Positions 8,582 to 56,105 of a DNA stretch of 64,000 bases are shown piece after piece (the stretch's first letter is position 1; every line of letters starts with the position of its first letter). Source of the stretch: an uncultured bacterium (GTDB lineage Bacteria; Elusimicrobiota; Elusimicrobia; Elusimicrobiales; Elusimicrobiaceae); assembly GCA_949296525.1 (NCBI GenBank), contig CASFOP010000002.1:62001-126000 (forward strand). The letters are read 5' to 3'. The translations under genes were made by a program, and so were the position numbers. The notes beneath the pieces were generated by a model. That model did no database searches. It worked only from the letters and a program-made list of their open reading frames with translations, and had not been told where the DNA came from.

Positions 8582-10105
<1,524 letters not shown>

Positions 10106-11056: not shown

Positions 11057-13400
<2,344 letters not shown>

Positions 13401-14128: not shown

Positions 14129-14611
14129 ATGAAAAAAGGTTTTACCCTGATAGAATTGTTAGTGGTGGTGCTTATTATTGGCATATTGGCCGCCGTTGCT
14201 TTTCCGCAATATGATGCGGCGGTGGCAAAGTCCCGCTATACGCAGCTGGTAACCGCCGGGAGGGCGCTATACCAGGCGCAGGAGCGTTATAAAATGGCCA
14301 ACGGGGAATATTCCCATTCCTTGGATGGGCTGGACATCCGGCTGCCAGGGGAAGACAGGGGCTCTTATTCAGCCGGGGAAGGGTTTATGTGCGAAATCGG
14401 GATAAGCCCGTCCAATAATGTGGTGTCCCAATTAGGCTGCAGCATGCGCAGCCGCGGCTACGGATATGCCATTTTCCCGCTGTCGGGCCGGAGTGCCTGT
14501 CTGGCCTACGATGGGAACAAAACCGGGGAAAGGCTGTGCCGCTCTTTAACGGGGCAGGCAGGAGCCTCTTCTTGTGACGGGGAATGCCTGCTTTTTTACT
14601 TTGATGAATAG
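14129..14611 (+). CDS. type IV pilin-like / pseudopilin protein 1
   Basis: A 160-residue prepilin with a very short 4-residue leader (MKKG), then the processing site and hydrophobic helix FTLIELLVVVLIIGILAA. Glu5 of the mature protein is present, as needed for pilus assembly. The globular part has several Cys (mature domain GFMCEIG, LGCSMRS, CLAYDG, LCRSL, SSCDGEC), consistent with disulphides. GAGG precedes the ATG. It stands alone after the atp operon and converges with tatD; no assembly genes (pilB, pilC, pilQ, pilD) are in the window. Confidence 0.9.
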   Translation: MKKGFTLIELLVVVLIIGILAAVAFPQYDAAVAKSRYTQLVTAGRALYQAQERYKMANGEYSHSLDGLDIRLPGEDRGSYSAGEGFMCEIGISPSNNVVSQLGCSMRSRGYGYAIFPLSGRSACLAYDGNKTGERLCRSLTGQAGASSCDGECLLFYFDE

Positions 14612-27479: not shown

Positions 27480-28499
27480 TTAATACTTAAAGACCCAAAC
27501 CTGATACGGCGGCATTTGAGCCGCTTTTTTGCGCCCGAACATCGTTTTGTACTTCTTTTCCAACAAGGCGGGCGGCAGGGGCTGTGGCGTTTCGGAAGCG
27601 TTGATCAAAACCGTGTAATGTTTGTTTTGATACTGCCAGCTGCGTCCGAAAAGCATAGGGGAGAACTCCGCCGGGTTTGGTGCCCCGGTGCCGTTTTCCA
27701 ATACGGGCTTGAACTTGTTCAGCTCTTTAGTAACGGCGGCCAGGCGTTTCCAGCAATCCGGCCGGGCCTGCGGCAGCGGTTTCCCCTGGGTGGTAAAGAT
27801 AAAGTAAAAAAGTCCGTCCGCCCCGTTTACAATGGCATGATAAGACATAAATCGCATTTCTTCTTCCGTGGGAAAGCGCCCTATGCGGTTTTCGTCAGGG
27901 CGGTATTGTTTGTATTCTTTCCAGTCAAAAGCCTGTACTACGCCCCACAGCGGGTTTTTGCCGGCATGCATGTCCACCATGCCGCGGCGGGCCAGGGCCA
28001 ATTGATCTCCAAAAGAAGTCAGCGGCAAATGCGGTACGGGATACCAATCCACCATTAAAATATCCGGCAAATCGTAAAAAGGCGTATCCGTTTTGCCTTG
28101 TCCGATGACCAATGCCGTGTCATGTGCGGGAAAGGCGGCTTTGGTTTTGTTGTATGTTTCTAAAACACGCGCGCGCGGCCAGCGGGCCACGTCCGGTTCG
28201 TCTACCAAATACCAGGCTAAAACCGGCCAGTTTTGGGCTTGTTTTTCGTAGGAAGAGCCGATGATTTTGTTGGGATAGAACACTACCTGCAGCCCCTGTT
28301 TTTGCGCTTCGGCTGCCAGCGAGGACAGCGTTTCCGGGTCGGTTTTATAAGTTTGTATGCAGGAAAACCCCGCTTTTTTAACGGTTTTTAGGTCGGCGGG
28401 ATTATCCACCCCGTATATACACAGCGGGAAAGGCGCGGCCTGCCCCACCGCCGCAGCAATAGAAAACAAAAGAGAAAAACATAGTTTATTGTGCCACAT
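27480..28499 (-). CDS. secreted TIM-barrel glycosidase-like protein
   Basis: A 339-residue protein with an N-terminal signal peptide (FSLLFSIAAAVGQA). Its pattern is that of a (beta/alpha)8 glycosidase: FPLCIYGVDNPADLKTVKKA at strand 1, VLAWYLVDEPD, DILMVDWYPVP, ADGLFYFIFTTQGKP, and a C-terminal beta region with HYTVLINAS. Acidic residues in YLVDEPD are plausible catalytic or binding groups. It overlaps the end of the priming glycosyltransferase gene by 14 bases, so it belongs to the polysaccharide operon and may trim or hydrolyse that polymer. Exact family and substrate are not identified. Confidence 0.7.
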   Translation of the reverse strand: MWHNKLCFSLLFSIAAAVGQAAPFPLCIYGVDNPADLKTVKKAGFSCIQTYKTDPETLSSLAAEAQKQGLQVVFYPNKIIGSSYEKQAQNWPVLAWYLVDEPDVARWPRARVLETYNKTKAAFPAHDTALVIGQGKTDTPFYDLPDILMVDWYPVPHLPLTSFGDQLALARRGMVDMHAGKNPLWGVVQAFDWKEYKQYRPDENRIGRFPTEEEMRFMSYHAIVNGADGLFYFIFTTQGKPLPQARPDCWKRLAAVTKELNKFKPVLENGTGAPNPAEFSPMLFGRSWQYQNKHYTVLINASETPQPLPPALLEKKYKTMFGRKKAAQMPPYQVWVFKY

Positions 28500-29823
28500 G
28501 TGAATCCTTAATAAAGGCCCGCAGGCCCGTTTTGAGCAGAATGTCCAAATCCATCAGGAAGGATCTGTTTTTAATATACCAAACATCGTAAGAAAAACGC
28601 ATAAAAGCACCGTCAAATGCGCGGGGTTCAAAGTTTTCTGGGGTGTTGTTTTTAAAGTTGACATATGTAAGTGGGGCTTTAAAATTGAGCTGTGCCCAGC
28701 CGGTAATGCCCGGCTTTACCACTGTGCGGATGGAATGGTTGGGGATGTATTTGTTTAAAAAAGTATATTCATCGTTCCAAATGGGTCTTGGCCCCACAAA
28801 AGACAAATCCCCCCGCAACACATTATAAATTTGCGGGATTTCATCCAGCCGGAAACGCCGCCAAATATGGCCCGTCCGCGTGATTTGTTCGTGGTCGGAC
28901 TCCTGACCCTTTTGGCGGATAGTGCGGAATTTATAGACGGTAATGGTTTTGCCCATGTATCCGGCTCTCTTTTGATGGTAAACAGGTTTTTCTTTATCTA
29001 CCCATTTAATCAGCAGCCAAATAACGGCCCCCGCCGGCAGCAGGAAAGGAAGCAGGCATAGGGCAAGCGCAATGTCCAAACAGCGTTTCAGCATGTCGTA
29101 CATGGCATCTCCGGGGCGGCGCCCTATGCCGCGCAGCAGCCACATGGCGTCATTGATGCTTTCGCGGGAGACGCGGCGGAAAAACTGTTCAAACACATTA
29201 AAGTCCGTATCTACGCAGACACCCTTGGAAATAAACTTTTTTGAAACAATGTCCCAGGCCTGCGGGTGTTCGGTAAACAGTTTGCTGGCTACGACCACGA
29301 TATCCAGATTATGCGTGGCATAAGAAGCAGATTCCTGCGGGATGCCTCCTTCCCTCACGGAAAACCCCTTGGACAGGCGGGCCTCCCTGCGTATTTCATC
29401 CAGCGTTTCGCTGTTACCGAACAGAAGGAGGGTTGTTTTGGCAAAATCCAGTTTAAAATAAGCCCGGCGCACCCAATATACATACAGGAAATAGATGGCC
29501 AGTACCGCCAACAAAATGGCCTTGGGTGTTACAAGCGGCAGCCGTGCCGATAGAAAATATAGAAAAGCTGCAGACAGAGTAGTACTGATGACAAAGGCCA
29601 CGCCAAGGCTTTTGTAGTTGGCATTTTGTTTGCGCAGTGCTTTGATATCGTAAAAAGAAAAAAGCCACAGGACAAAAGTGACCAAAATAAAAACAAACGC
29701 AAATACCTTGCAGTTGTTGAAATAGGTAAAGAGGCTGATTTCCCACCGGCGTACCGAGACGGCTATGAAAAGGATAATAAAAAAGGCGCAAAAATCCAAA
29801 AAGAAAAACAGTTTCTTATTCAT
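28486..29823 (-). CDS. polyprenyl-phosphate hexose-1-phosphate transferase (priming glycosyltransferase)
   Basis: A 445-residue membrane enzyme that starts polysaccharide repeat synthesis by moving a sugar-1-phosphate from a nucleotide sugar to undecaprenyl phosphate. Four N-terminal helices (about 5-125) are followed by a CoA-binding-like region. The C-terminal catalytic domain begins KRCLDIALALCLLPFLLP and contains KPVYHQKRAGYMGKTITVYKFRT, RRFRLDEIPQIYNVLRGDLSFVGPRP and VKPGITGWAQLNFKAP, all hallmarks of the WcaJ/WbaP family. The sugar is not readable from sequence; the adjacent epimerase suggests a galactose- or GalNAc-type donor. Confidence 0.93.
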   Translation of the reverse strand: MNKKLFFFLDFCAFFIILFIAVSVRRWEISLFTYFNNCKVFAFVFILVTFVLWLFSFYDIKALRKQNANYKSLGVAFVISTTLSAAFLYFLSARLPLVTPKAILLAVLAIYFLYVYWVRRAYFKLDFAKTTLLLFGNSETLDEIRREARLSKGFSVREGGIPQESASYATHNLDIVVVASKLFTEHPQAWDIVSKKFISKGVCVDTDFNVFEQFFRRVSRESINDAMWLLRGIGRRPGDAMYDMLKRCLDIALALCLLPFLLPAGAVIWLLIKWVDKEKPVYHQKRAGYMGKTITVYKFRTIRQKGQESDHEQITRTGHIWRRFRLDEIPQIYNVLRGDLSFVGPRPIWNDEYTFLNKYIPNHSIRTVVKPGITGWAQLNFKAPLTYVNFKNNTPENFEPRAFDGAFMRFSYDVWYIKNRSFLMDLDILLKTGLRAFIKDSHVAQ

Positions 29824-30748
29824 GCGCGCTCTCCTGCCATATTTCTTTTAATCCTTCTTCCAAAGATACGGAAGGGGTATAGCCCAGTGCGCGGATTTTG
29901 GAAATATCGGCGGAAGAAAGTTTTACGTCTCCGTCGCGTTTGGGGCGAAATACGCGGCCCAGTCTACGGCCGGATACTTTTTCTACCAGTTCCGCCAGTT
30001 CCAGCAGGCTGCAGGTTTGACCGCGGGCCACATTGTAGCATTCGCCGGGGGCGGCTTTCCGCGCGGCCAGCAAATTGGCCTGTACTACGTCCCGCACATG
30101 GACAAAGTCCCGGCTTTGGAGGCCGTCCCAATCTATACCCAGGGGTTTGTTATGTGCGGCCAAACTCATAAATTTGGCAATGACTGCGGCGTAAGGGGAA
30201 TCCGGATTTTGCCCGGGGCCAAATATATTGAAATAAATTAAAGAAACGGTTTCCAACCCATATACGCGGGTGTACATTTGGCACATTTCCAAGCCTTGCA
30301 GCTTGGACAGGGCATAAGGGGACTGGCAATCCCGCGCGGCCGTTTCCCGGTAAGGCAGATCCGGCCCGTTGCCGTATATGGCGCTGGAACAGGCGAATAC
30401 CACGCGTTTGACATGGCATTGACGGGCACATTCCAACACATGGGCTGTCCCCTGGGTGTTAATGGCAAAGGTATCCAGGGGCTGCATCACAGACTGCGGC
30501 ACCGATACCAACGCCGCATGGTGCAATACATAGTCCGCTCCGGCCATTGCTTCTTGTAGAGAGGAGACGTCCCGTATGTCGCCTTGTATGAGCTTGATTT
30601 GGCCTTGTATGGCGGCTAAATTTTCCCGTCGCCCGGAGGAGAAATTATCCAGTACCCGCACGTTTTGCCCGCGCCGGACCAGTTCTTTAACCAAATGGGA
30701 GCCGATAAAACCCGCCCCGCCGGTAATCATCCAGGTGTATTTTTCCAT
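29816..30748 (-). CDS. NAD-dependent sugar-nucleotide epimerase (GalE/WbpP-like)
   Basis: A 310-residue extended short-chain dehydrogenase/reductase: GGAGFIGSHLVKELVRRGQN at the N-terminus, LHHAALVSVPQSV, SSAIYGNGPDLPY, and catalytic Tyr-x3-Lys in SPYALSK. The segment LIYFNIFGPGQNPDSPYAAV is typical of UDP-GlcNAc 4-epimerases of the WbpP type, though UDP-glucose 4-epimerase activity is possible. It overlaps the priming transferase by eight bases and probably supplies its donor. A TATAAT box on the minus strand (30780-30775) and a GGGGGAAGGGG ribosome-binding site lie upstream. Confidence 0.87.
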   Translation of the reverse strand: MEKYTWMITGGAGFIGSHLVKELVRRGQNVRVLDNFSSGRRENLAAIQGQIKLIQGDIRDVSSLQEAMAGADYVLHHAALVSVPQSVMQPLDTFAINTQGTAHVLECARQCHVKRVVFACSSAIYGNGPDLPYRETAARDCQSPYALSKLQGLEMCQMYTRVYGLETVSLIYFNIFGPGQNPDSPYAAVIAKFMSLAAHNKPLGIDWDGLQSRDFVHVRDVVQANLLAARKAAPGECYNVARGQTCSLLELAELVEKVSGRRLGRVFRPKRDGDVKLSSADISKIRALGYTPSVSLEEGLKEIWQESAHE

Positions 30749-30911: not shown

Positions 30912-31757
30912 ATGTTATATCCAGCTTTTACCGTTTTGATGTCTGTGTACGCCAAGGACAAACCTGATTGGATTGCCCAGGCGCTGGACAGCGTATTGAA
31001 CAATACCGTTGCCCCGGCAGAGGTGTTGGTGGCCGTGGATGGCCCGGTAGGGACGGAGATAAAAACGGTGCTGGATAGGTATTCAAAAGCACATGGGATA
31101 AAAAATATTTATTTTCCCCGCAATAGAGGTAGAGGGGCGGCTTTGCAGGATGCTGTACCGCAATGCACCCATGAAATGGTGGCTTTGATGGATGCGGATG
31201 ATATTTGCCTGCCTAATCGGTTTGAATTGTTGCTTCAATATTTTTATAACCATCCGGAAACGGACATTTGTGGCGGACAGACCGAGGAAGTAGACTCTCA
31301 AACATTGAAAGAGATTTCTTTGCGTCAGGTTCCGTTGACGGACTCCGCCATTAAACAATACGTCAAATCTCGCTCTCCCTTTAACCAGCAAACCGTTATG
31401 TTTAAAAAGACGTCTGTTTGCCGGGCCGGCGGATACAGAGCTTTTCATTTGTTTGAAGATTATGACTTGTGGGTGCGTATGGCCTGGGAGGGGGCGGTTA
31501 TGGCCAACCTGCCAGAAGTATTGGTTCGAATGCGGGTGGATAACCAAATGTTTGCCCGCCGCGGTGGCTGGAAATATTTTAAAAGCAATTTGGCTTTGCA
31601 AAATGAATTGCTCCAATACAGGATGATTTCATTCCCTAGGTATATTTTTAACACGGCTGTGCGGTTTGCCGTACAAGTATTGCTGCCGAACGGTATGAGA
31701 AGTTGGTTCTACAAGAAAGCATTGAGATGCTCAAAGAAGAAGGCAACCTTGTGTTGA
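30912..31757 (+). CDS. family 2 glycosyltransferase
   Basis: A 281-residue GT-A-fold enzyme: FTVLMSVYAKDKPDWIAQAL at the N-terminus, EVLVAVDGPVG, and the metal/nucleotide motif MDADDICLPNRFE. It ends in EDYDLWVRMAWEGAV, typical of inverting GT2 enzymes. It probably adds one sugar to the lipid-linked repeat on the cytoplasmic side. There is no good Shine-Dalgarno; TATAAT at 30888-30893 would give a leader of about ten bases. First gene of the rightward, AT-rich set. Confidence 0.88.
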   Translation: MLYPAFTVLMSVYAKDKPDWIAQALDSVLNNTVAPAEVLVAVDGPVGTEIKTVLDRYSKAHGIKNIYFPRNRGRGAALQDAVPQCTHEMVALMDADDICLPNRFELLLQYFYNHPETDICGGQTEEVDSQTLKEISLRQVPLTDSAIKQYVKSRSPFNQQTVMFKKTSVCRAGGYRAFHLFEDYDLWVRMAWEGAVMANLPEVLVRMRVDNQMFARRGGWKYFKSNLALQNELLQYRMISFPRYIFNTAVRFAVQVLLPNGMRSWFYKKALRCSKKKATLC

Positions 31758-32809
31758 GTACTGTGACAAAATATATCCTTAATTTCTTTTATCGTTTTAG
31801 AAAGAAAGAAACAAAAGAAATAAAAAAAATCCTCTTTTTATTCCCCAGCAGTGCAGTAGGTGATACTGTTGTGGAAACTTTTTTTATTCGTGAAATAAAA
31901 AAATTATTCCCACAAGCCAAACTGGATATATTTATTCTAAAACCGTCTGCGGTGCTTTTAAAAGGCAATCCGGCTATAAATCGTATCTTCACGATGCCCG
32001 TAAACAAATATAAAAAATTATGCTGTCTGGCCCGGAGGGTGTTGTCCTTCCGAAAAGAACGATATGATTTGATTTTAGATCTTCCCCACAGCGGTTATGC
32101 TCCATTTAGGCAGATTTATCTTTATTTAATTGGATCTGCCAAAGTAATGAGTTGTAATGTGGGAGGATACGATTTTATTACGCATGCAGTCCAATGGGAA
32201 GAAGGGAAAGAACACATTACCAAAGCGGTATATATAAAAGCGCTGAAGATGTTGGGTGCTGAGGGTCCATTTCAGGTATATTATGATTTGAAAATACCTC
32301 CCGCTGAACAAGAAGCCGTATCTTCTTTTTGGGAAACAAATCATCTTAACGCTAAAAAAGTCTTGCTGTTTAACACTGAAGGATCTTCTCCTTTTAGGAC
32401 ATTGTCAAATAAAAGAATTTTAGAAATCATTTATGCTTTGCAAAAGAATTGTCCTCAGTATCAGGTGTTGTTATTGGCTTATCGGAAAAATTTTAGCGAA
32501 TTTCCGCAAGAAATACCGGTTTTCTATACAAAATCCATCCTATTAAGTGCGGCCGCTGTACAAAAAGCGGATTACATTCTGACCGTAGATACAGGAGTGG
32601 TACATTTAGCGGATGCTTTTCATAAACCTATGTGTGTTTTATTTTCTGCCATCGCTAAAGAGGGGTTTTTGCGTCCCCATGTAGAACATTTTTGGGGATC
32701 CATAAATAAAGGGAACTGCTACTTAAAATCAAATGCTAGCGTTAATGATATATCAAATACTTTAATAATAAATACAACTTTACATCATCTTTGCCGTAAA
32801 GAGGGATAA
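31727..32809 (+). CDS. family 9 glycosyltransferase (heptosyltransferase-like) 1
   Basis: A GT-B-fold protein of about 360 residues. The N-terminal half has ILFLFPSSAVGDTVVETFFI, matching the heptosyltransferase start (normally R-x-S-x-x-G-D). The C-terminal half has VLLFNTEGSSPFRTLS and ILTVDTGVVHLADAFHKPMC, the GT9 donor-site signature (usually DTGxxHLAxA). It likely transfers a heptose or another sugar in the polysaccharide repeat. The start is uncertain: ATG 31727 overlaps the preceding gene by 31 bases; GTG 31751, with GAAGG upstream, is the alternative. A second member lies at 33930. Confidence 0.82.
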   Translation: MLKEEGNLVLSTVTKYILNFFYRFRKKETKEIKKILFLFPSSAVGDTVVETFFIREIKKLFPQAKLDIFILKPSAVLLKGNPAINRIFTMPVNKYKKLCCLARRVLSFRKERYDLILDLPHSGYAPFRQIYLYLIGSAKVMSCNVGGYDFITHAVQWEEGKEHITKAVYIKALKMLGAEGPFQVYYDLKIPPAEQEAVSSFWETNHLNAKKVLLFNTEGSSPFRTLSNKRILEIIYALQKNCPQYQVLLLAYRKNFSEFPQEIPVFYTKSILLSAAAVQKADYILTVDTGVVHLADAFHKPMCVLFSAIAKEGFLRPHVEHFWGSINKGNCYLKSNASVNDISNTLIINTTLHHLCRKEG

Positions 32810-32811
32810 TA

Positions 32812-33921
32812 ATGTTGCCTTTAGCCATGACCATGACCCCTGCACAAATTGCTCCGTATCTGTGGCAATATGGAGTCTTTTTGGGTATTATTATGTGCCT
32901 GTGGATTTTTTCAATAAAATCAAAAGGTTCGCACTGGGGCAGTTTGATTTTATGTGCGGTACTGGTTTTTATTGCTGGATTTCGCCATTTTTTACACACG
33001 CAGGATACCTGGGTCTATGTTCGCTCTTTTGAAGTAATTTCCACCGGCATTTTACACGGAGGAACTTATATGGAAAAAGGCTATGTATTATATAATTATA
33101 TACTGTCTTGGTTTTGCAAATCTCCACAAATTGTCCTTTTTTCAAATGCTTTCCTGACTATTGCCGGATATTATATTTGTTATAAAAAATATAGCACCAA
33201 CCCATTCTTGTCACTTGTATTATTTTGCGTCAATTCCATCAATGGGTTTGTTCCCATGATGAATCTTTCCAGGCAGTATTTGGCCGTAGGAATTATTATG
33301 TTTTCAGTGGGATTTATAGTTAAAAGGAATTTTATATTATTTTTGCTAGGTATTATAGTGGCAGGTAATTTTCATACTTCAGCATATTTGGCAATTATTT
33401 TGTATTTTCTTTACCCTATACCATTTAAGCTCAAATATGCTGCTATTGGTATGATTGCTACAGCTTTTTTAGCTTTCACCCCTTTACTGGATTTGGTAAT
33501 GTCTTTACTCCACTCCACGATTATGAGCCGACTGCTGCGCCTACATGAAGAAGGAATAAAACTGGCGGCTTTGGCCAACACGGTAATCTCTTTTGGAATA
33601 TTCTCATTTTGCCTATGGACATTTCAACGATATAAATCTTCAATCCGAATGAACATTTCTCCCTCCTTTTTATTATGGAGCTCTTTGCTCACGTTATGTA
33701 TGTTTATTATATCTCTAAACTCTCATGCATTTGATAGAATAGCCTTATTATTTTCCGGGCTTAACATATTAGCCTTAAGTAATTTTATTTGTGTACATAA
33801 GGCGACTAACAGATATATCTTTGTAATTGGATTTTTATCTGTATTTATAATATACAGCTGTATCTGTTTTGTATATCGGCCAGAATGGGGGATGCCGATT
33901 CCATTTAGATTTTGTTTCTAA
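32812..33921 (+). CDS. EpsG-type polysaccharide polymerase (Wzy-like)
   Basis: A 369-residue integral membrane protein with about ten predicted helices. The segment VFIAGFRHFLHTQDTWVYVR (GxRxxxxTQDTxxY) and MNLSRQYLAVGIIMFSVGF (with Arg-Gln) follow the pattern of EpsG proteins, which join lipid-linked repeats at the outer face of the inner membrane. It lies two bases after the first GT9 gene. A separate O-antigen ligase-type protein is encoded at 41875-43503, so the locus has two candidate polymerases or ligases. Confidence 0.83.
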   Translation: MLPLAMTMTPAQIAPYLWQYGVFLGIIMCLWIFSIKSKGSHWGSLILCAVLVFIAGFRHFLHTQDTWVYVRSFEVISTGILHGGTYMEKGYVLYNYILSWFCKSPQIVLFSNAFLTIAGYYICYKKYSTNPFLSLVLFCVNSINGFVPMMNLSRQYLAVGIIMFSVGFIVKRNFILFLLGIIVAGNFHTSAYLAIILYFLYPIPFKLKYAAIGMIATAFLAFTPLLDLVMSLLHSTIMSRLLRLHEEGIKLAALANTVISFGIFSFCLWTFQRYKSSIRMNISPSFLLWSSLLTLCMFIISLNSHAFDRIALLFSGLNILALSNFICVHKATNRYIFVIGFLSVFIIYSCICFVYRPEWGMPIPFRFCF

Positions 33922-33929
33922 TAAATACT

Positions 33930-34982
33930 ATGAAGCCATTAAAAGAAAGAGTTTTAAATATACTGTGGAGAATGATTACTTTCCTGCTGGATATCCTCCC
34001 TTCCAAGACAACCCCTTATTATGATGTTCGGCTTGCAGAAAGAGTTGCTATTTTATCCTATGGGTCAAAGGTAGGTGATAGTGTGATTATGACTCTTTTT
34101 GTGCGTAATTTTAAAAGGCATTTCCCCCACACGCACCTCACTGTTGGAATACAGAAAGAATATGAGGAAATTTTTAAAAACAATCCCAATATAGATAGCT
34201 TAATCACTTTACCGAATTCTTTCTTAGAGTTACACTCTCTTTTAAAGAAACATCGTTGGGATGTGATATTGGATATCCCGTTTTCCGATAGAAAAAATTT
34301 ATTGGCCTATTATTTTTCAGCCCCACATAAGCTCATTTCAGTACAATATCATGCGCCCTGCAAACATATTGCGTATCTTAAACCTGCTGAAAGAACTCAC
34401 TTTTCCGATATTTTTGTGCAGGCGTTACGCTTATTTGATATTCAATCCCCTGATCTCTCATATGATTTGTTTCCCTCTTTTACAGATAAAAACTATGTCC
34501 AAACTTTTCTTTCTAAACACCAATTACAAAATAAAAAATTTATATTATTTAATCCACAAGCTTCCAGCCTTTCTAGATGTTTGAATGCCACTGCCGTTCG
34601 GAGTATCATTGATAAATTAAAACAGGCAAAAATTCCAACCGTTTTATTGTGCCATCAGTTAAAATACGCAAAGGCCTTGCCATTAGATGTACCAATTTTT
34701 CATACAAATTCCATTATGCACACAGCAGCCATTGTATCAACAGCCGACCATATTCTAACTGTAGATACAGGGGTTGTACATATAGCAGACGCCTATAAAA
34801 AACCTATGACAGTATTATACAGTGATGTTTGTAATCCCGGGGAGTTTCCGCGCTCTGCCCAATATCTAAAAATATGGCAGCCGAAACATTCCCGTTTTTC
34901 TTTTCTGCGAGCACTGCACAACGTAAATGAAATATCTCCTGAAGAAATTGTAGGAACTGTCACCGGGAATTGGAATCATTGA
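33930..34982 (+). CDS. family 9 glycosyltransferase (heptosyltransferase-like) 2
   Basis: A 350-residue GT9-type protein related to the one at 31727: AILSYGSKVGDSVIMTLFVR in the N-terminal domain and ILTVDTGVVHIADAYKKPMT in the C-terminal donor-binding domain. Start at ATG 33930 is preferred to a TTG at 33912 that lies inside the preceding gene. The two GT9 genes flank the EpsG-type polymerase and have probably arisen by duplication followed by strong divergence. The acceptor and donor sugars are unknown. Confidence 0.83.
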   Translation: MKPLKERVLNILWRMITFLLDILPSKTTPYYDVRLAERVAILSYGSKVGDSVIMTLFVRNFKRHFPHTHLTVGIQKEYEEIFKNNPNIDSLITLPNSFLELHSLLKKHRWDVILDIPFSDRKNLLAYYFSAPHKLISVQYHAPCKHIAYLKPAERTHFSDIFVQALRLFDIQSPDLSYDLFPSFTDKNYVQTFLSKHQLQNKKFILFNPQASSLSRCLNATAVRSIIDKLKQAKIPTVLLCHQLKYAKALPLDVPIFHTNSIMHTAAIVSTADHILTVDTGVVHIADAYKKPMTVLYSDVCNPGEFPRSAQYLKIWQPKHSRFSFLRALHNVNEISPEEIVGTVTGNWNH

Positions 34983-34985
34983 TTT

Positions 34986-36530
34986 ATGAAACAAAATCAC
35001 AAGCGCATCTTTAAGAATACTGTTATGCTCTATATCCGTATACTATGCGCGATGTTTTTATCTTTTTATATTTCCCGCATCGTGTTGCAATTGCTGGGGG
35101 TTGAAGATTTTGGAATTTTAAGTGCTGTGTTTGGCGTCACAAACTTAATGATGTTTGTAAATGTTTCTCTGAGCGGAGCCACATCCCGTTTTCTTACATT
35201 TGAATTAGGAAAGGGGGCCGGGGGAAACCTGACCAAAGTTTTTCGTTCTGCTCTGTTTGCGCATGTAATTGCAGCGGTGATTTTTATCTTATTGGTAGAG
35301 ACAATTGGCCTTTGGTTAGTAAATCATAAATTGGTATTGGGGCCCGGCAAATTGGCCGCTGCTAATATGTTATTCCAACTAGGAATAGGCGCATGTGTCT
35401 TATCCATTCTTAAAATTCCTTATGAAGCCATAGTTATTGCTTATGAAAGAATGAATATTTTTGCTTATATTAGCATTTTGCAATATATACTCCAGCTGGC
35501 CTTATTTTCTTTGTTATTTTTATTTCCGAAAAGCAATCTATTGGTTGATTATGGTGTTATGTTCTTGTTGGTGAATGTAATTGTATTGTTTTCCTATATT
35601 TTCTATGACTGGAAAGAATTTGCAGAAACAAGAGGAGGTCCCGTCTATTACAAAGATATAACAGCTTCTATTTTTAACTTTTGTATGAAAACATTATATT
35701 CGGACGGTTCTCATGCATTGAAGATGCAGGGAATTAATATCCTAGAAAATATATTTTTTGGTCCGGTATTTAGTGCGGCCACTGCTGTTGCCAATCAAGC
35801 TTATTTAGGAATTTCTAGCTTTGCAGATAATTTTTTGACAGCGTGTCGTCCGCAAATTGTAAAAAATTATGCCGCCGAAGAATACCAAGAATTGCAATTT
35901 CTGGTTATTAACTGCACAAAACTGGCATTGGGGCTTTTATTGCTGGTGCTGGTTCCTTGTATGATAGAAACGGATTTTATTCTCCGGATTTGGCTTAAAA
36001 ATGTTCCGGATCACGCAGTTGTGTTCTGCCGTTTCCTTTTAGTGGCGAGTTATTGTTCAATACTGTTCCGGACCTTGGTATTTGCCATACAAGCGACTGG
36101 GAAAATAGGAAAAATGAGTTTGGGCTTTGGGACTATATATTTACTGGTTATCTTAGTATCTTATTGGCTGTTAAAAGCAAAGGCGATCCCCATTATTCCA
36201 TTTGTTGTAAATCTTCTAAGCCCTATTGGATTATGTATAATCACGCTTCTTTTAATTTCTAAACAGATTCCTCAAATATCGGTAACCTCGTTTCTTTCTG
36301 AAGTTATAGGCCGGGGCGGGATGATGACACTTTGTGCGTTTATCCCGGCCTTTTTGGTGCAGCAGTATTTGGCAGAGGGATGGATAAGATTCATTTTGGT
36401 AATGTTAACCAGTACTATTTGTGTAGGGGCGTCCGGGTTTGTGTGGGGTCTTTCCGCCAAACAACGGTATTTTTTGATTTCATACATAAAAAATTTCATG
36501 ATACGATTCCATGAAAAGAGAGGAGATTAA
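34986..36530 (+). CDS. wzx: polysaccharide flippase (Wzx, MOP superfamily)
   Basis: A 514-residue membrane protein with about fourteen predicted helices. The N-terminal part FYISRIVLQLLGVEDFGILS, then VSLSGATSRFLTFELGKG, is characteristic of Wzx/PST flippases that move undecaprenyl-linked repeats across the inner membrane. It is three bases downstream of the second GT9 gene and three bases upstream of the QueC-like gene, so all are one transcript. Confidence 0.92.
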   Translation: MKQNHKRIFKNTVMLYIRILCAMFLSFYISRIVLQLLGVEDFGILSAVFGVTNLMMFVNVSLSGATSRFLTFELGKGAGGNLTKVFRSALFAHVIAAVIFILLVETIGLWLVNHKLVLGPGKLAAANMLFQLGIGACVLSILKIPYEAIVIAYERMNIFAYISILQYILQLALFSLLFLFPKSNLLVDYGVMFLLVNVIVLFSYIFYDWKEFAETRGGPVYYKDITASIFNFCMKTLYSDGSHALKMQGINILENIFFGPVFSAATAVANQAYLGISSFADNFLTACRPQIVKNYAAEEYQELQFLVINCTKLALGLLLLVLVPCMIETDFILRIWLKNVPDHAVVFCRFLLVASYCSILFRTLVFAIQATGKIGKMSLGFGTIYLLVILVSYWLLKAKAIPIIPFVVNLLSPIGLCIITLLLISKQIPQISVTSFLSEVIGRGGMMTLCAFIPAFLVQQYLAEGWIRFILVMLTSTICVGASGFVWGLSAKQRYFLISYIKNFMIRFHEKRGD

Positions 36531-36532
36531 GA

Positions 36533-37669
36533 ATGCTTAACTTAAATATTTCTGCAATTCATTTTAATGATTCGGAAGTTGAGATAGACTATCATATATC
36601 CCCACAACTAAAAGAAATAGATTCTGGCGCCCCGATCAAACTCAACTATGCTTTTCTGGTAAAAAAAGATTATACATGGGCAAGTATGGTTGCTTTAGGT
36701 TCGTTTTTGCCTTATTTAGTGAGCAGAGATTCGAAGATTAAAGTAACTCTCCCCATCGCTGCGACGGAATGGCTAAAAGAATACTGGCAACAATATTTAA
36801 CAGCTATGTTTGAATCGTCATTTTCCATTGAATGGGTCTTTACGGCACAATATTCCACAGAGGAAAAAGAAGATAGTTTGTTTTCATCAAACGCATCTAA
36901 TCGCATCGGCCTTTTTTATGGGGGAGGGGTGGAGAGTACATTTGCTTTGTCTACTTTCTATCATAAAAATCCGATTCTTATATCTATTAACGGCAAAAAT
37001 TGGATGAATGCGGATAAAGATAAAAGTCCTATTAAATATAATTTGATTTCAGAGTTAACACAGAAATACGGACTTTCTTTGGAGGAAGTTTCCATGAATG
37101 TCCGAAACCTGATTAAAGATACCGATGCTATTTTTAATCGTTTTGTTACAGGGAATCTGTTTTATTTCCTGGCGGCACCTATTGCAGATAAATTTGGCAT
37201 AGGGACTCTATATTTATCGACAGAGTTGGAATATGCATTGGAAGTTGGAGAGCACGACCAATCTATTCACCCACGGTTTGTGAATAATGTTTTTGTTAAA
37301 AAGCCTTCCTGGCCACTATTTATGTCTATTTATATGGGATTCCCAAAGGTTTCCATGTTTGCAAAACTGGCAAAAACCGATTTTATTAAATATATTTATT
37401 CTTGTTTTAACAATTCCCAAAAAAGATGGTGTGGCGCCTGTTCTAAGTGTTTTAGAATCAGTGAATTTTGCGATAGGATTCATTTAGACCGCCAGATAAT
37501 CGGGATGCAGGAAGGGATTACGGGCCGGAGAGAGCATAGTCCGGTCACTCGTTATTCTTGGCAATATATGGACAAAATCTATGGGCGAAAATATATGCGT
37601 GAATTTGTTTTATTAGCAAAACATGCAATCAAGAAATTCAAAAAGAAATTCTTAAAGATAAATAGCTAA
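36533..37669 (+). CDS. QueC-like PP-loop protein with zinc-type Cys cluster, in the polysaccharide locus
   Basis: A 378-residue protein with a unique N-terminal domain of about 120 residues followed by an ATP-pyrophosphatase-like domain: LFYGGGVESTFALS (127-140) matches the PP-loop SGG-x-D-S-T with Glu in place of Asp. Near its end, Cys291, Cys300, Cys303 and Cys306 (SCF...WCGACSKC) reproduce the four-Cys zinc site of QueC, followed by FR. QueC makes the nitrile of preQ0 through ATP activation of a carboxylate. A role in activating or amidating a sugar carboxylate is plausible here but purely inferred. MurL-type or sugar amidotransferase relationships are alternatives that could not be tested. 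Last gene of the rightward AT-rich operon. Confidence 0.7.
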   Translation: MLNLNISAIHFNDSEVEIDYHISPQLKEIDSGAPIKLNYAFLVKKDYTWASMVALGSFLPYLVSRDSKIKVTLPIAATEWLKEYWQQYLTAMFESSFSIEWVFTAQYSTEEKEDSLFSSNASNRIGLFYGGGVESTFALSTFYHKNPILISINGKNWMNADKDKSPIKYNLISELTQKYGLSLEEVSMNVRNLIKDTDAIFNRFVTGNLFYFLAAPIADKFGIGTLYLSTELEYALEVGEHDQSIHPRFVNNVFVKKPSWPLFMSIYMGFPKVSMFAKLAKTDFIKYIYSCFNNSQKRWCGACSKCFRISEFCDRIHLDRQIIGMQEGITGRREHSPVTRYSWQYMDKIYGRKYMREFVLLAKHAIKKFKKKFLKINS

Positions 37670-37683
37670 TAAATATATAAACA

Positions 37684-37710
37684 GCCCCAACCTCTAATGG
37701 GGCATTTGTG
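37684..37710. terminator. weak bidirectional terminator between convergent polysaccharide operons
   Basis: GCCCCA...TGGGGC six-base-pair stem with an 8-base loop followed by ATTTGTG. It lies between the QueC-like gene and the leftward gene ending at 37732. Confidence 0.5.
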
Positions 37711-37731
37711 CGCAAAAGAGTATTTGCAAAA

Positions 37732-38820
37732 CTATTTAAGCCGATCCCGCAGGGCTTTTAAATAACTCCTGCGGGTATTTTGTTTATGTATTTGTAAGGC
37801 CGTGTTGAGCGTTTGTATTTGGCCGATGTAAAAATTTATTTTATCTAATACTTCTAACACAGGGGTTTGGGGGGTAACTAATCCGGCCAAGAAGCCTTTT
37901 GTCGTTTTCCCTCTATTATCATGTACTACTGCAAGGCCCGGAATACCCATAGAAGCGCTAATCCCAATGCCATGCACACGGTGCCCAATGACGAAATCAA
38001 AACGATGAAAGATATCCAAATAATCCTTGGAATCATAGGAATAAAGGATATTTATTCCCGGGAAATCTTTATAGGCGTGGGGGAGTTCGTCTATATAATG
38101 GCAAACCATTTCTATTTCATATTGGGAGGAAAAACGACGGATGATTTCGCCATACAATTCTTTTAAATATATGTATGTATCCTGCGAAACATTATTATTA
38201 TCGGAAGCCAGGTAAGTACCATAAATCAAGCCAATTTTCTTGACCTTTTGTATCTTTTTTTCATAAGGAACTGTTGCGCTTAACAAAGCCGGACAAGGTA
38301 GCACGAGGGGATGATATTGCTCTAAGAATTGACCCGCATTTTCATCACGGGCGGTAATTAACAGGGCTCGGCTTAAGACTGCTTGTTCCAGTGCCGAAAG
38401 TTTTTGTTTAGTAAAATTGGGCCCCGCCCCTATCCCTAAAAATAAAACCGGTATTTCCCTTTCAAAAATTACTTTGTATAAGGGTTGACAGAAAGGACCT
38501 TTCCATTCCGGTGAACCTGCAAAAACGGCCAAATCTAAAAAAGAGGGGTCCGTATCATTTTTAAAAGAATTATCCAAAAAGCCTGTGCGCAAAAATGCAC
38601 GGGCAAGGCTATTCCCAGTCGGACGCCACCGTTCCCAGCGGGAAGACTTTAAGAAATTTAAATTTGAGAATTTTCCCTGCCGTACTTCTGGATTGCGGTT
38701 AAAAATAATAGGATTAAAATCCGGATAAATTTCTTTTAACAAGTTAATACAACCCATTAAAATAAATTCATCTCCAGGATTCCACTGGCGAGTGGTAGAA
38801 AAAAGAATATTCCTATTCAT
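37732..38820 (-). CDS. polysaccharide pyruvyl transferase family protein
   Basis: A 362-residue protein: it begins with [20 protein letters not shown], has [20 protein letters not shown] and [12 protein letters not shown] in the middle, and ends with [21 protein letters not shown], the pattern of the CsaB/polysaccharide pyruvyl transferase family. Members add pyruvate ketals to sugars using phosphoenolpyruvate, though many clustered members are uncharacterised. Its ATG overlaps the TGA of the acetyltransferase gene upstream. It is the last gene of the leftward wza-wzc transcript. Confidence 0.88.
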
Positions 38821-39455
38821 ATAGAATTAGAAGTGTATTTGGCGATAAATTTTGAAATATCTGTAAAATCTTCTATTCGACTCAAAATAACATTTTGGGG
38901 CCAATCCCACCATTTAATTTTAAGCAACTTTTCTATATCTTGTTTTGGAAAACGATACTTTATTACCTTAGCCGGAACTCCAACGGCTATTGCATACGGA
39001 GGTATATCTTTACTTACAACGGCTCCCGCACCCACAACGGCACCATCTCCGATAGAAACTCCGGACAGTATGGTTACATTTTGGCCGATCCATACATCGT
39101 TTCCAATATCAATATTCCCTTTAAACCTCGGCCGCATCAATTCTTTATGTTCCGATAAAGAAAAACGATCTATAAAGGGGTAAGAGGAAACCCAGTTGGT
39201 ATCATGTTCTCCGCCACATATAATAGTAATATCTTGGGCTAAAGAACAATATTTTCCAATATTCAGATGAATCGCCGAGGCGCTTTTCCAGGAAAAGATT
39301 CGTAAAAAATTTGCATAAGTCCCATCTCCTATTGTTATGGTTGGGATATGATTTCCATAGAACCGTGCATATACCCCCCCTTTAGGGCTGATATTGCGCA
39401 AAACCTTACGTCTTTTGTACCAATCAACAACCAGACGAATTGCTTGTTTAATCAT
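38817..39455 (-). CDS. hexapeptide-repeat acetyltransferase (CatB/VatD-like)
   Basis: A 212-residue left-handed beta-helix acyltransferase: repeats such as [40 protein letters not shown] and [20 protein letters not shown], ending [14 protein letters not shown]. The catalytic His is probably in [14 protein letters not shown], the loop found in xenobiotic- and polysaccharide-acetyltransferases. It likely O-acetylates a sugar of the repeat unit. It starts two bases after wzc ends and overlaps the pyruvyltransferase-like gene by four. Confidence 0.9.
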
Positions 39456-39457
39456 TT

Positions 39458-41179
39458 TTAGAATTTTTTCTGTTTTTCTTCATTATAATAAGCGTAGGTT
39501 TTGTAATACCCGTATTTGCCGTAGGACAGGCCCTCGGGGCGGTAATGGCCGATGACCGCGCCCAGGATTTTAATCCCGGCCTTTTGCAGCTTGTCCAGCG
39601 CCACCTGCGCCAGCTTGGCGTTGGTCTGCCCGTATTTAATGACAAACACCGCGCGCGGCACATATTTGCCCCATAGCAGTGTGTCTGATACCGGCAATAT
39701 GGCCGGGCAGTCTATGACCACCTGGTCATAATTCTTTTGCGCCCATTGCAGGAAATCGGCCAGTTTGGGGGTGTTAAGCAGTTCTGCCGGGTTGGGAGGG
39801 CGCTGGCCGGATGTCATGACAAACAAATTCGGCACATCTTTGACAGGCTGCACATTGGCGGCATAATCAGCCTTTTTCGGATCCGCGTCCCAAATATTGC
39901 TCAGCCCTTTTTCGGTAGAGAGCTTAAATACGCGGTGCACGCGGGCCCGGCGCAAATCCCCGTCCACCAGCAGCACTTTTTTCCCGGCCTGTGCCATGGC
40001 TACCAGTAAATTGGAGGACAGATGGCTCTTGCCCTCTCCCTGCAGGGAGCTGGTAATCAGGAAAGGCGCGTTGTGATTGTCGGATAAGGCAAAATCCAGC
40101 ATGGTGCGTATGTTGCGCACATTTTCCGCTAACAGGAAATTGCCCGTTTTGAGCATGGTGGCGTATTCATTCTCTTTCTTTTTGGTTTTTTCATACGGCA
40201 CAAACCCCAGGAAAGGCAAATGCAGTTTTTCTTCCAAATCTTCGGAAGATTTTACGCTTTGGTCCAAAAATTCCAACACAAACACCAGCCCCAGGCCCAG
40301 AATCCCTCCGGCCAGCAGGCCGATGGCCAAATTGAGCAGCTTGCGCGGGCGGACAGGCCGTTCCGGCGTGACTGCGGGGTCAATAATGCGGATATTGTTG
40401 CCGGAGAATTGCCCGGAAAGTTCAATTTTAATGCTTTGTACCAGGCGGCGGGTTTCGGTGTTGATTTGCTCGTTTACCGCATCCAGCTGGTTTTGCACGG
40501 AAATCAATTCCGGGTGTTGGTCTGTATATTTGGCAGCCAGTTTGGCCTGTTCGGCCGCCAGCTGTGCCGCCTGCTGTTTTAATGTTTTAATAAAATCGCT
40601 GTTTACGACCTGCGGCATGGAGTTAAGCAGCTCTTGCTCCTCGGGACTGCGTTCCGTGCTTTCCAGCGCGGCGATGACGTCCTGCCCCATAAAAACGCGG
40701 TTGCTGACGTTTTCGGACACGAAGGTGTTTGTCAGCGTATTGGCTATTTCCGCCGCCAGCTTGGGGTCATAAGCCGTTACGGACACATTGACCAGGCGGC
40801 TGCGTGTAACCGGAGCTATGTCCAGGGCGTTTTGCAGCTTTTTTAAACCCTCCGGGTTTTTAAACTGCTCATACTGGCCCAAATCCATCGTTTTGTAGAT
40901 TTTTTCCAGCAGGGAGCGGCTTTCCAACAGCTGGTACTGCGTGCGGTAGTAATCCTCCTCGCTGGTAAAAGAGCCGTAGGGCGTGGCGTCTATTTCCCCG
41001 GCGTCTTCCTGGTTAATCATCATCAGCACCGTGGCTTTGTAGGCCGGGCGCATAAAAATATTTACCAGTACAGCCGCCGCCAGTCCCAGCGCCAGCATAC
41101 CGACAATCAGCCAGAAGCGCTTGAAAATGATATTGACGTAATAAGAGAAATCCATTTCTTCGTTTTGTATATTTTCCAT
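39458..41179 (-). CDS. wzc: polysaccharide co-polymerase / tyrosine autokinase (Wzc-like)
   Basis: A 573-residue fusion protein. The N-terminal Wzz domain (two membrane helices, about 22-42 and about 285-310) controls chain length, with a coiled-coil periplasmic part between. The C-terminal BY-kinase has Walker [17 protein letters not shown] (about 375-390), Walker A' [14 protein letters not shown] and Walker [12 protein letters not shown]. The tail holds eight tyrosines in its last 30 residues ([14 protein letters not shown]), the autophosphorylation cluster. Together with Wza it forms the export assembly; the phosphatase at 43541 is its likely partner. Confidence 0.95.
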
Positions 41180-41188
41180 GTTTGACCT

Positions 41189-41830
41189 CTAGAACATGCT
41201 TTGCGGCACGAAAATTACATCGCCGGGCAGCAAAGGGATATCCATGTTTTTGTTTCCCTGTTTGGTGATTTGCGTGACGTCAACATCCAGCGCTTTTTGT
41301 ATCCCGTTTTCCATGCGCAGCACGCGCACCCTGGAGGTATTGGCGATATCGGTAAAACCGCCCACGGAAGTAATGGCCTCCAGCACGGTCAGGGGTTTTT
41401 CGGGCGGGATTTCTATGGCGGCCGGTTCTTTGACCTGCCCCAGCACATAGACGGTTTTATTGCCGTATTCCTTAATCAGTATGGACACCTGCGGGTTTTT
41501 TAAATAGGTTTTCAGGGCTTCGGACAAACGTACTTCGGCTTCGGCCACCGTATATCCGGCCACCCGGATATTGCCCGCCAGCGGGAAGGTAATGGCACCG
41601 CTGCCGCTGACGCGCAGGGTGCGAGCCATGTCCTCTTCCATAAAAACCTGGATTTCCAACAGGTCTCCGGGCTGCAACACATAAGCTGCGGAGGCGCGAA
41701 CCTGCTCTATCCCCTGGCTGATTTCCCGGGATACGGCGGCGTTTTGCAAAGGTTCGGTGTTTTGCGCCGGTGCACCGGCGCAGGCGGTCAAGCAGGCCGC
41801 GGTCAAAATGCACAAAAAAGACTGTTTCAT
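41189..41830 (-). CDS. wza: polysaccharide export lipoprotein (Wza-like)
   Basis: A 213-residue lipoprotein (lipobox LTAC, lipidated Cys17) with the polysaccharide export (PES) domain YVLQPGDLLEIQVFMEEDMA, GAITFPLAGNIRVAGYTVAE, then one SLBB domain (VYVLGQVKEPAAIEIPPEKP, LEAITSVGGFTD). At 213 residues it is much shorter than E. coli Wza (about 380), lacking extra SLBB repeats and the C-terminal outer-membrane helix. The separate beta-barrel protein at 25917 could supply the outer-membrane path. Starts the wza-wzc-acetyltransferase-pyruvyltransferase transcript. Confidence 0.92.
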   Translation of the reverse strand: MKQSFLCILTAACLTACAGAPAQNTEPLQNAAVSREISQGIEQVRASAAYVLQPGDLLEIQVFMEEDMARTLRVSGSGAITFPLAGNIRVAGYTVAEAEVRLSEALKTYLKNPQVSILIKEYGNKTVYVLGQVKEPAAIEIPPEKPLTVLEAITSVGGFTDIANTSRVRVLRMENGIQKALDVDVTQITKQGNKNMDIPLLPGDVIFVPQSMF

Positions 41831-50256: not shown

Positions 50257-50312
50257 TTGTATTGTTTTTTTTTTTTGATAAATTTTGCGTATGCGCAAAA
50301 TTTATCAAAAAA
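50257..50312 (+). promoter_or_regulatory. pilin-type promoter module with T12 run and start-codon palindrome (pilin 2)
   Basis: TTGTAT (50257-50262), a 16-base spacer containing twelve T (50265-50276), TAAATT (50279-50284), six bases, ATG (50291). The left arm TTTTTTGATAAATTTTGCG (50271-50289) and right arm CGCAAAATTTATCAAAAAA (50294-50312) form a perfect 19-base palindrome with TATG in its loop, so the start codon lies in the centre. A near-identical module is at 55442-55497. A second imperfect stem (about 50328-50360, ending GGCGGTTTT) follows. Confidence 0.6.
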
Positions 50313-50902
50313 TGACCCCCCGCAGAAAAAACCCCGCTAAAAGCATTTTAGGCGGTTTTATCCATAAGTCCATCCCGGGTAATGGCAGCCCGGGGTTTCA
50401 TCTGCGTTTTGGCAGACAGGCCGGCTTTACGCTAATAGAACTTTTGGTGGTGGTGCTGATTATCGGCATTTTGGCGGCCATTGCCCTGCCGCAGTATACC
50501 AAAGCTGTTACGAAATCCCGTTTTTCGGAAGCCTTTATAAATTTAAAAGCAATTTATAATGCCGTCCAAATCTGTGAACTGGAAACCGGGACAAAGACGG
50601 CGGGGAACATAGATGCTCCCTGTGCCAGTTTTGCCAATTTGGCCATTTCCCTGCCCTGCGAAAGCGGGGATGAATGGAACTGTCGGATTGGGGATTTTAA
50701 ATACCGTACCACGGATGTAGACAGCAACGGAAAAGCGAATGCTTTATATATGACGGAAGATGTATGTCTTTGTATGGAAGAAGACGGTGAGCTGGTGCTC
50801 AACCAGACCTATGACGGCTGTACAGGCAGCGAGGCGTCTTTGGATTATGCCAAACTGCTCAATATTACGGAAGTTGATTCCTCTCGGTGCAGTTGTTGTT
50901 AG
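50291..50902 (+). CDS. type IV pilin-like / pseudopilin protein 2, with 45-residue leader
   Basis: A 203-residue prepilin. The segment FTLIELLVVVLIIGILAA begins at residue 46 after Gly45, and the mature N-terminus has Glu5. There is no Met close to the processing site, so translation must start far upstream; ATG 50291 gives a basic 45-residue leader (MRKIYQKMTPRRKNPAKSIL...). Pilin 3 has the same leader length and related sequence. The globular domain (KAVTKSRFSEAFINLKAIYN) carries eight or more Cys, including CLCMEEDG and SSRCSCC at the end. It stands alone after tilS. Confidence 0.88.
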   Translation: MRKIYQKMTPRRKNPAKSILGGFIHKSIPGNGSPGFHLRFGRQAGFTLIELLVVVLIIGILAAIALPQYTKAVTKSRFSEAFINLKAIYNAVQICELETGTKTAGNIDAPCASFANLAISLPCESGDEWNCRIGDFKYRTTDVDSNGKANALYMTEDVCLCMEEDGELVLNQTYDGCTGSEASLDYAKLLNITEVDSSRCSCC

Positions 50903-55441: not shown

Positions 55442-55497
55442 TTGCATTGTTTTTTTTTTTTGATAAATTTTGCATATGGGCAAAATTTATCAAAAAA
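55442..55497 (+). promoter_or_regulatory. pilin-type promoter module with T12 run and start-codon palindrome (pilin 3)
   Basis: TTGCAT (55442-55447), twelve T (55450-55461), TAAATT (55464-55469), six bases, ATG (55476). The left arm TTTTTTGATAAATTTTGC (55456-55473) and right arm GCAAAATTTATCAAAAAA (55480-55497) form a perfect 18-base palindrome with ATATGG in the loop. A second stem AAAACCGC...GCGGTTTT (about 55514-55543) follows, as in pilin 2. Confidence 0.6.
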
Positions 55498-56105
55498 TGT
55501 ATTCGACAAATAAAAACCGCTCTAAATGTAATTTAGGCGGTTTTATCGGCAAAACTGTTTTGGGCTGTTTGTATGCAAAACTCCGTCGGCCGGCGGCAAA
55601 GCAAGCCGCTTTTACGCTGATAGAACTTTTGGTAGTGGTTTTGATTATCGGCATCTTGGCGGCTATTGCCGTACCGCAATACCAGGTGGCGGTGATGAAA
55701 TCCCGCGCTGCCGAGCTTTTTGTGAATGTCAAAGCGGCCCGCCAGGCCTCTGATGTATATTATATGGCCAACGGCACCCGTCCCACCAGCTGGCTGGATT
55801 TGGATATATCCATCCCTTATGAAAAATTATCTGATGACGGCGGGCTAAATACCCGGGAAAACGGGGTGCTGACTACACCCCGGGGGAATGTATACAGCCT
55901 GGATATGGACGGATATATTGAAGGGCGCCTGCCGGATTTTGAGCTGCGCATATCTTCCCATTATACGCCGGGCGGTCTTTTCCGGGGGCGGTTTGTCTGC
56001 CGGGCCCGGGTAAGCAATAAAGCGGCCAACCAGGCCTGCCTTTCTTTGGGCGGGGTCTATACCGGGCAGCAGGGAACGGATTCAAACATATATGCCATTG
56101 AGTAG
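55476..56105 (+). CDS. type IV pilin-like / pseudopilin protein 3, with 45-residue leader
   Basis: A 209-residue prepilin. The hydrophobic segment FTLIELLVVVLIIGILAA begins at residue 46, preceded by Ala45 instead of the usual Gly, which prepilin peptidases tolerate less well. The basic 45-residue leader (MGKIYQKMYSTNKNRSKCNL, then GGFIGK) shares positions KIYQKM, KN and LGGFI with pilin 2. The mature domain (VAVMKSRAAELFVNVKAARQ) has two Cys near the end (FVCRARV, QACLSLGG). It is a single gene after murD. Confidence 0.87.
   Translation: MGKIYQKMYSTNKNRSKCNLGGFIGKTVLGCLYAKLRRPAAKQAAFTLIELLVVVLIIGILAAIAVPQYQVAVMKSRAAELFVNVKAARQASDVYYMANGTRPTSWLDLDISIPYEKLSDDGGLNTRENGVLTTPRGNVYSLDMDGYIEGRLPDFELRISSHYTPGGLFRGRFVCRARVSNKAANQACLSLGGVYTGQQGTDSNIYAIE

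Follow-up and report, generated by a model that had tools for sequence, protein, structure and literature searches.

The window, a 64,000-nucleotide stretch of DNA from an uncultured bacterium of the Elusimicrobiaceae (host genome 1.54 Mb, 94% complete), contains a polysaccharide locus. On the + strand, a GT2 glycosyltransferase gene is followed by genes for a GT9 enzyme, an EpsG polymerase, a second GT9 enzyme, a Wzx flippase and the PP-loop protein under study. Beyond it, on the - strand, lie a PF04230 gene, a hexapeptide acyltransferase gene and then Wzc-like and Wza-like genes; the other end of the locus is formed by a PF02397 initiating transferase and an epimerase. The features, in window coordinates, are:

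28486-29823, - strand: initiating sugar-phosphate transferase (PF02397)
29816-30748, - strand: NAD-dependent nucleotide-sugar epimerase
30912-31757, + strand: GT2 glycosyltransferase
31703-32809, + strand: GT9 glycosyltransferase
32812-33921, + strand: EpsG/Wzy polymerase, only 28% identical in sister loci
33912-34982, + strand: GT9 glycosyltransferase
34986-36530, + strand: Wzx-type flippase, with close orthologues (75-76% identity) only in the same four genomes as the PP-loop gene
36520-36525, + strand: ribosome-binding site GAGGAG, within the end of wzx (from the sequence)
36533-37669, + strand: PP-loop/zinc (QueC/QatC-like) protein, 378 aa (from the ORF, model, Foldseek and motifs)
36533-36898, + strand: N-terminal domain spanning roughly residues 1-122, rich in beta strands and with two helices (model and profile alignment)
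36920-36937, + strand: PP-loop GGGVES, residues 130-135, a Rossmann-type strand-loop-helix in the model
37262-37273, + strand: SIHP, residues 244-247, counterpart of the WGSHP of relatives (alignment)
37403-37450, + strand: zinc site C-x8-C-x2-C-x2-C, residues 291-306 (C291, C300, C303, C306)
37732-38820, - strand: polysaccharide pyruvyl transferase family protein (PF04230, E 2e-30)
38817-39455, - strand: hexapeptide-repeat acyltransferase
39458-41179, - strand: Wzc-like chain-length/tyrosine kinase (translation, by eye)
41189-41830, - strand: Wza-like export protein (translation, by eye)

The PP-loop reading frame is intact and starts with ATG. The wzx stop codon ends at 36530, leaving two bases between the genes, and the PP-loop gene is the final one on the + strand, the next gene (PF04230) being convergent. 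A preliminary description had placed the gene close behind wzx, last in its operon and within a polysaccharide locus, all of which is borne out by the flanking glycosyltransferase, EpsG/Wzy, Wzx and PF04230 genes. Its statement that queuosine and defence genes are absent nearby also holds. There are no queD or queE neighbours at the locus, only polysaccharide genes, and the genome's own QueC is encoded on another contig; no qatA, qatB or qatD neighbours were recognised, and PADLOC gave no hit for the protein.

Motifs and predicted fold agree with the earlier proposal of a QueC-like PP-loop protein extended by an N-terminal domain of about 120 residues. The PP-loop was correctly read as having Glu in place of Asp; compared with SGGxDS, GGGVES differs at two positions of the same loop, Gly also replacing the first Ser. 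From the model, GGGVES would be expected to form the predicted ATP pyrophosphate site. The replacement of both the first Ser and the Asp means that activity has possibly been lost or changed. The four cysteines recognised at first reading as a QueC zinc pattern (C291-x8-C300-x2-C303-x2-C306) have the C(x)8CxxCxxC spacing of QueC (PMC13329287), a pattern with no occurrence in 20,000 shuffles of the window protein. The Arg of the R-x-x-K stretch of relatives has no evident equivalent in the window protein. Orthologues with 75-79% identity retain both the PP-loop and the cysteines, and dN of 0.14-0.15 against dS of 1.8-2.0 among them, the latter near saturation, indicates purifying selection on the gene.

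The GC content from the first GT9 gene to the acyltransferase gene (window 31703-39455) is 35-40%, whereas the window as a whole has 50% and wzc 52%, and the PP-loop gene therefore sits in an apparently exchanged cassette. Low GC combined with divergence of the polymerase among sister loci is typical of serotype-like exchange.

Two other observations were made in the window. Three scattered genes (14129-14608, 50291-50899 and 55476-56102) have a near-identical type IV pilin-like start (FTLIELLVVVLIIGILAA). By eye, an NAD-dependent epimerase-like gene (10112-11044) lies between the ATP synthase alpha (8582-10102) and gamma (11057-11959) genes, with beta following at 11982-13397, an odd insertion in the operon.

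Family relationships and predicted fold

No Pfam, NCBIfam, PADLOC or PHROG family scored above cut-off for the window protein, and a PDB sequence search returned no significant match; weak matches to zf-UBR, Cas1 and antibodies were attributed to chance. Searches of phages and plasmids by tblastn at E 0.01 gave no matches. The plasmid search was then relaxed to E up to 10, and its matches were checked by profile comparison with shuffles. Ten of the 11 matches, in Priestia and haloarchaea, span the same PP-loop-to-zinc stretch; the eleventh (Klebsiella, H15), by eye similar to a DNA polymerase III delta-prime protein, is unrelated. The Priestia and haloarchaeal relatives have no Pfam or NCBIfam family of their own.

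A profile comparison with ten relatives gave a score of 96.6 over residues 4-310, against a maximum of 28.2 in 60 column shuffles and 26.5 for the reversed profile. The DUF6395 (PF19932) profile scored 56.3 (E 9e-7) and the QueC profile 31.2, the latter restricted to 27 columns at the PP-loop; the Pfam model of DUF6395 reached 10.6 bits against a gathering cut-off of 25. Both the unnamed PP-loop family and DUF6395 have N-domains to which that of the window protein aligns. Viral contigs and a rhamnose locus yielded further family members, as did Elusimicrobiota (genomes G062, G186 and G314, and a fragment in G040). In the G040 copy (L108:1-1461, G040:C25), the PP-loop/zinc C-terminal half follows repeat-protein sequence in the same reading frame at the start of a contig, through fusion or an assembly error, and this copy was left out of the analysis.

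In a tree of 28 rows, the branch that carries the window trio measures 2.0 changes per site, and the trio falls outside the 17-row unnamed family (branch 98/97), outside DUF6395 and outside QueC. Its exact position is unsure because the branches are very long. Judged from these sequence comparisons, the window protein forms a separate lineage.

With the three orthologues as input, AlphaFold produced no usable core (pLDDT 44), whereas twelve rows sufficed for one. The twelve-row model, of moderate quality (mean pLDDT 65, pTM 0.65), has a Rossmann-type core behind the N-domain, which has pLDDT of roughly 55-85 in both models. Against solved structures, QatC came out on top in Foldseek (E 2e-6 and 6e-6, over about 319 columns), ahead of two QueC structures (225 and 217 columns); both families had been named for comparison in the preliminary description. 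The roughly one hundred extra columns with QatC would fit an alignment of the N-domain. QatC 9y01_B and the moderate window model superpose with a TM-score of 0.45. Among viral structure models, 7-cyano-7-deazaguanine synthases rank first.

Distribution and genomic neighbourhoods

Within the genus, the PP-loop gene occurs in four of 66 genomes, and this wzx and this PF04230 gene (close orthologues 79-83% identical) are confined to exactly the same four. Among 341 genomes of the phylum, no orthologue was found beyond the three other carriers, and a scan of genome contigs with the orthologues alone recovered the same three loci only. Most genes of the four loci are 55-88% identical, compared with 28% for the polymerase, which indicates that the PP-loop gene tracks the flippase and PF04230 and not the polymerase. 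A single linked cassette underlies all four cases, which therefore amount to one event. After these, the closest wzx genes, at 33-35% identity, belong to G062 and G040, both of which carry a more distant PP-loop member; in G062 it adjoins wzx, and in G040 it is on another contig, wzx being at a contig end. PF04230 as a family is present in 32 of the 66 genomes, and to our knowledge its members need not all transfer pyruvate, so that its proximity here is at most suggestive.

The suggestion that homologues would be linked to polysaccharide loci was followed by a survey of neighbourhoods, in which relatives recur in surface-glycan loci across bacteria and archaea. On two Priestia plasmids, tandem copies lie beside PF04230, GT-D glycosyltransferase, galU and UDP-sugar dehydrogenase genes, with a DUF6395 gene near the copies on one of them. 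On plasmids of Gloeothece verrucosa and Gloeothece citriformis, PF04230 is directly upstream, accompanied by glycosyltransferases and then peptide synthetases. A Pseudobutyrivibrio plasmid has glycosyltransferases, PF04230 two genes off and an O-antigen ligase, and the elusimicrobial G062 has the order PF04230, wzx, PP-loop, PF04432. A contig from a viral collection (L120) combines tandem copies with PF04230 (E 2e-6) and rhamnose genes. Haloarchaeal loci contain flippases, glycosyltransferases, a polysaccharide deacetylase, Gfo/Idh oxidoreductases and acyl- or amine-ligase genes, with no PF04230 seen nearby. There are exceptions: the G314 copy is at a contig end among genes not recognisably glycan-related, and tail genes surround several of the viral-contig copies.

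Further features of these loci were recorded. The tandem copies are diverged (L082:10224-12837 in Priestia; L120:496-2779), which hints at two-subunit or two-step action. In two haloarchaeal loci (L084:11057-12265 and L094:11995-13200), an ATP-grasp or 'carboxylate-amine ligase' gene lies next to the PP-loop gene or close to it, which suggests that the pathway includes amide chemistry. Members on viral contigs (L104:3703-4989, IMGVR_UViG_3300025735_000053; L112:5526-6707; L114:9621-10895; L115:8587-9765; L116:1291-2424) include several that adjoin tail, baseplate or endolysin genes, and perhaps alter a host surface glycan.

Predicted function and its alternatives

With ATP, QueC converts a carboxylate first to an amide and from there to a nitrile; Cap9 links a carboxylate to an amine of a protein, and QatC probably acts like Cap9, joining carboxylate to amine (PMC13329287, PMC11996544, PMC13279940). 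MurL consumes one ATP with formation of AMP, and adenylation of an alpha-carboxylate has been hypothesised (PMC8788868). Carboxylate activation is the step common to QueC-type enzymes and MurL, and a glycan-linked carboxylate is therefore the likeliest target. We put at about 40% the probability that the window protein acts as a soluble enzyme tailoring the repeat unit: with conversion of ATP to AMP, it would activate an acidic substituent (perhaps a pyruvate ketal) and probably make an amide of it ahead of Wzx. The PP-loop would split ATP into AMP and pyrophosphate and adenylate a carboxylate on a lipid-linked or nucleotide-linked sugar, and ammonia or a small amine would then attack the adenylate as nitrogen nucleophile to give the amide. 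The likeliest carboxylate would be a pyruvate ketal placed by the neighbouring PF04230 protein, and the tailored repeat unit would then be flipped by the adjacent Wzx. What the sequence analysis itself shows is the intact gene, its zinc-site pattern, its relationships by family and by predicted fold, its linkage and co-inheritance with wzx and PF04230, and the lack of a detected uronate route in three of the four carriers; we infer the ATP-to-AMP chemistry, the amide product, the pyruvate-ketal substrate and the timing before Wzx alike.

Amidation of a uronic-acid carboxylate had been proposed initially. Uronic acids need a UDP-sugar dehydrogenase, and PF00984 was not found in the window genome, G012 or G050, G057 alone of the four carriers having one. 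Uronate amidation is thus unlikely, and the pyruvate ketal becomes the best candidate after a search that covered the uronate route; other acids, those of nonulosonic and Kdo routes among them, may also serve. We know of no earlier description of amidation or conjugation of a pyruvate-ketal carboxylate as a glycan modification.

Alternatively, the glycan could be the nucleophile: a free amino, hydroxy or other organic acid would be adenylated and joined to a sugar amino group, the glycan gaining an acyl or aminoacyl group. The PP-loop chemistry would be identical, haloarchaeal loci hold GNAT, ATP-grasp and 'carboxylate-amine ligase' genes, and peptide synthetase genes lie near the Gloeothece copies. 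Against this, inspection by eye of the window locus revealed no amino-acid gene, and acylation there is already served by the hexapeptide acyltransferase; we consider such a transfer rather unlikely. It is improbable that the protein is a degenerate, non-catalytic PP-loop protein retained in a structural or regulatory role within the export machinery; the two departures of GGGVES from SGGxDS would be in keeping with this, but the gene is under purifying selection and the PP-loop and cysteines are fully conserved in orthologues. An epimerase that adenylates the carboxylate of a sugar-bound amino acid and inverts the alpha carbon, as MurL does, would share the AMP-forming chemistry and, presumably, the order of N-domain, PP-loop and Cys motif; a MurD2-like ligase was not recognised in the locus, and we give this reading only a slim chance.

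A protein that handles 7-deazaguanine, as QueC and Cap9 do, or modifies a defence partner, as QatC does, is very improbable. QatC is the best structural match and several relatives are on viral contigs, but the QueC motifs YxQxHxxE, VPxRN and YPDC, defined with mutants (PMC13329287), are all missing in the window protein and present in the genome's own QueC. PADLOC gave no hit, eight relatives yielded one weak QueC match (E 0.0096), and most loci have glycan neighbours. Least credible of all is a WbpG/PseA-type N-acetyl sugar amidotransferase (NASAT) converting acetamido to acetamidino groups: that family also combines a PP-loop with a four-Cys zinc site in O-antigen loci (PMC10607449), but its Cys pairs precede the PP-loop and those of the window protein follow it, no NCBIfam match was obtained and no HisH/HisF-like gene was seen in the locus.

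Amidation of a glycan-linked carboxylate leads to a wider proposal, which we regard as doubtful: a widespread, unnamed QueC-like branch would have been taken up into surface-glycan pathways of bacteria and archaea, where it amidates or conjugates sugar-bound carboxylates (here the pyruvate ketal), the window protein being a separate deep lineage of it. Recent work has extended the roles of QueC-like enzymes beyond the making of tRNA bases to the modification of proteins in phage defence. A surface-polysaccharide branch that spans Elusimicrobiota, Bacillota, Cyanobacteriota and Halobacteria and is covered by no dedicated Pfam or NCBIfam family would extend the QueC fold to glycan tailoring. In the literature, no report was found joining QueC with polysaccharide or with PF04230, nor any on DUF6395. 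Copies on Priestia and haloarchaeal plasmids make the function testable in culturable organisms.

Comparison with known systems

QueC (PF06508) shares with the window protein the PP-loop, the C(x)8CxxCxxC zinc site and the fold; it differs in its length, about 222 aa against 378, and in its SGGxDS loop. With its three motifs missing, no Pfam or NCBIfam QueC match and a canonical QueC elsewhere in the genome, the window protein was rejected as a QueC. QatC of qatABCD (PDB 9Y01, 9Y02), the best solved-structure match, likewise has an N-terminal extension and a QueC core, whereas the window protein has an altered PP-loop and a glycan locus in place of qatA/B/D neighbours and a PADLOC hit.

The unnamed family with the motifs WGSHP and NCGxCEKCxRT (Priestia WP_221785232.1, haloarchaeal WP_226777365.1, Gloeothece WP_013334578.1) shares the N-domain, PP-loop, SNxRSFL-like stretch, SHP, zinc site and glycan loci, and in its bacterial members the PF04230 neighbours; it has SGGVDS and WGSHP, in contrast to the GGGVES and SIHP of the window protein. 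DUF6395 (PF19932) shares the N-domain, PP-loop and CxxCxKCF zinc site but forms a separate clade in the tree. MurL, likened by description, resembles the window protein in turning ATP to AMP on a carboxylate (PMC8788868). NASAT (WbpG; LpNASAT, PDB 8WEX) has a PP-loop, four-Cys zinc site and polysaccharide locus, but its Cys pairs (Cys44-Cys82) precede SGGKDS at 122-127; the sugar amidotransferase comparison raised in the preliminary description is disfavoured by this motif order and by the profile searches. On the tests made, the window protein is not QueC, QatC, DUF6395 or NASAT but represents a new lineage among the QueC/QatC-like PP-loop zinc proteins, with links to surface glycans and a predicted function.
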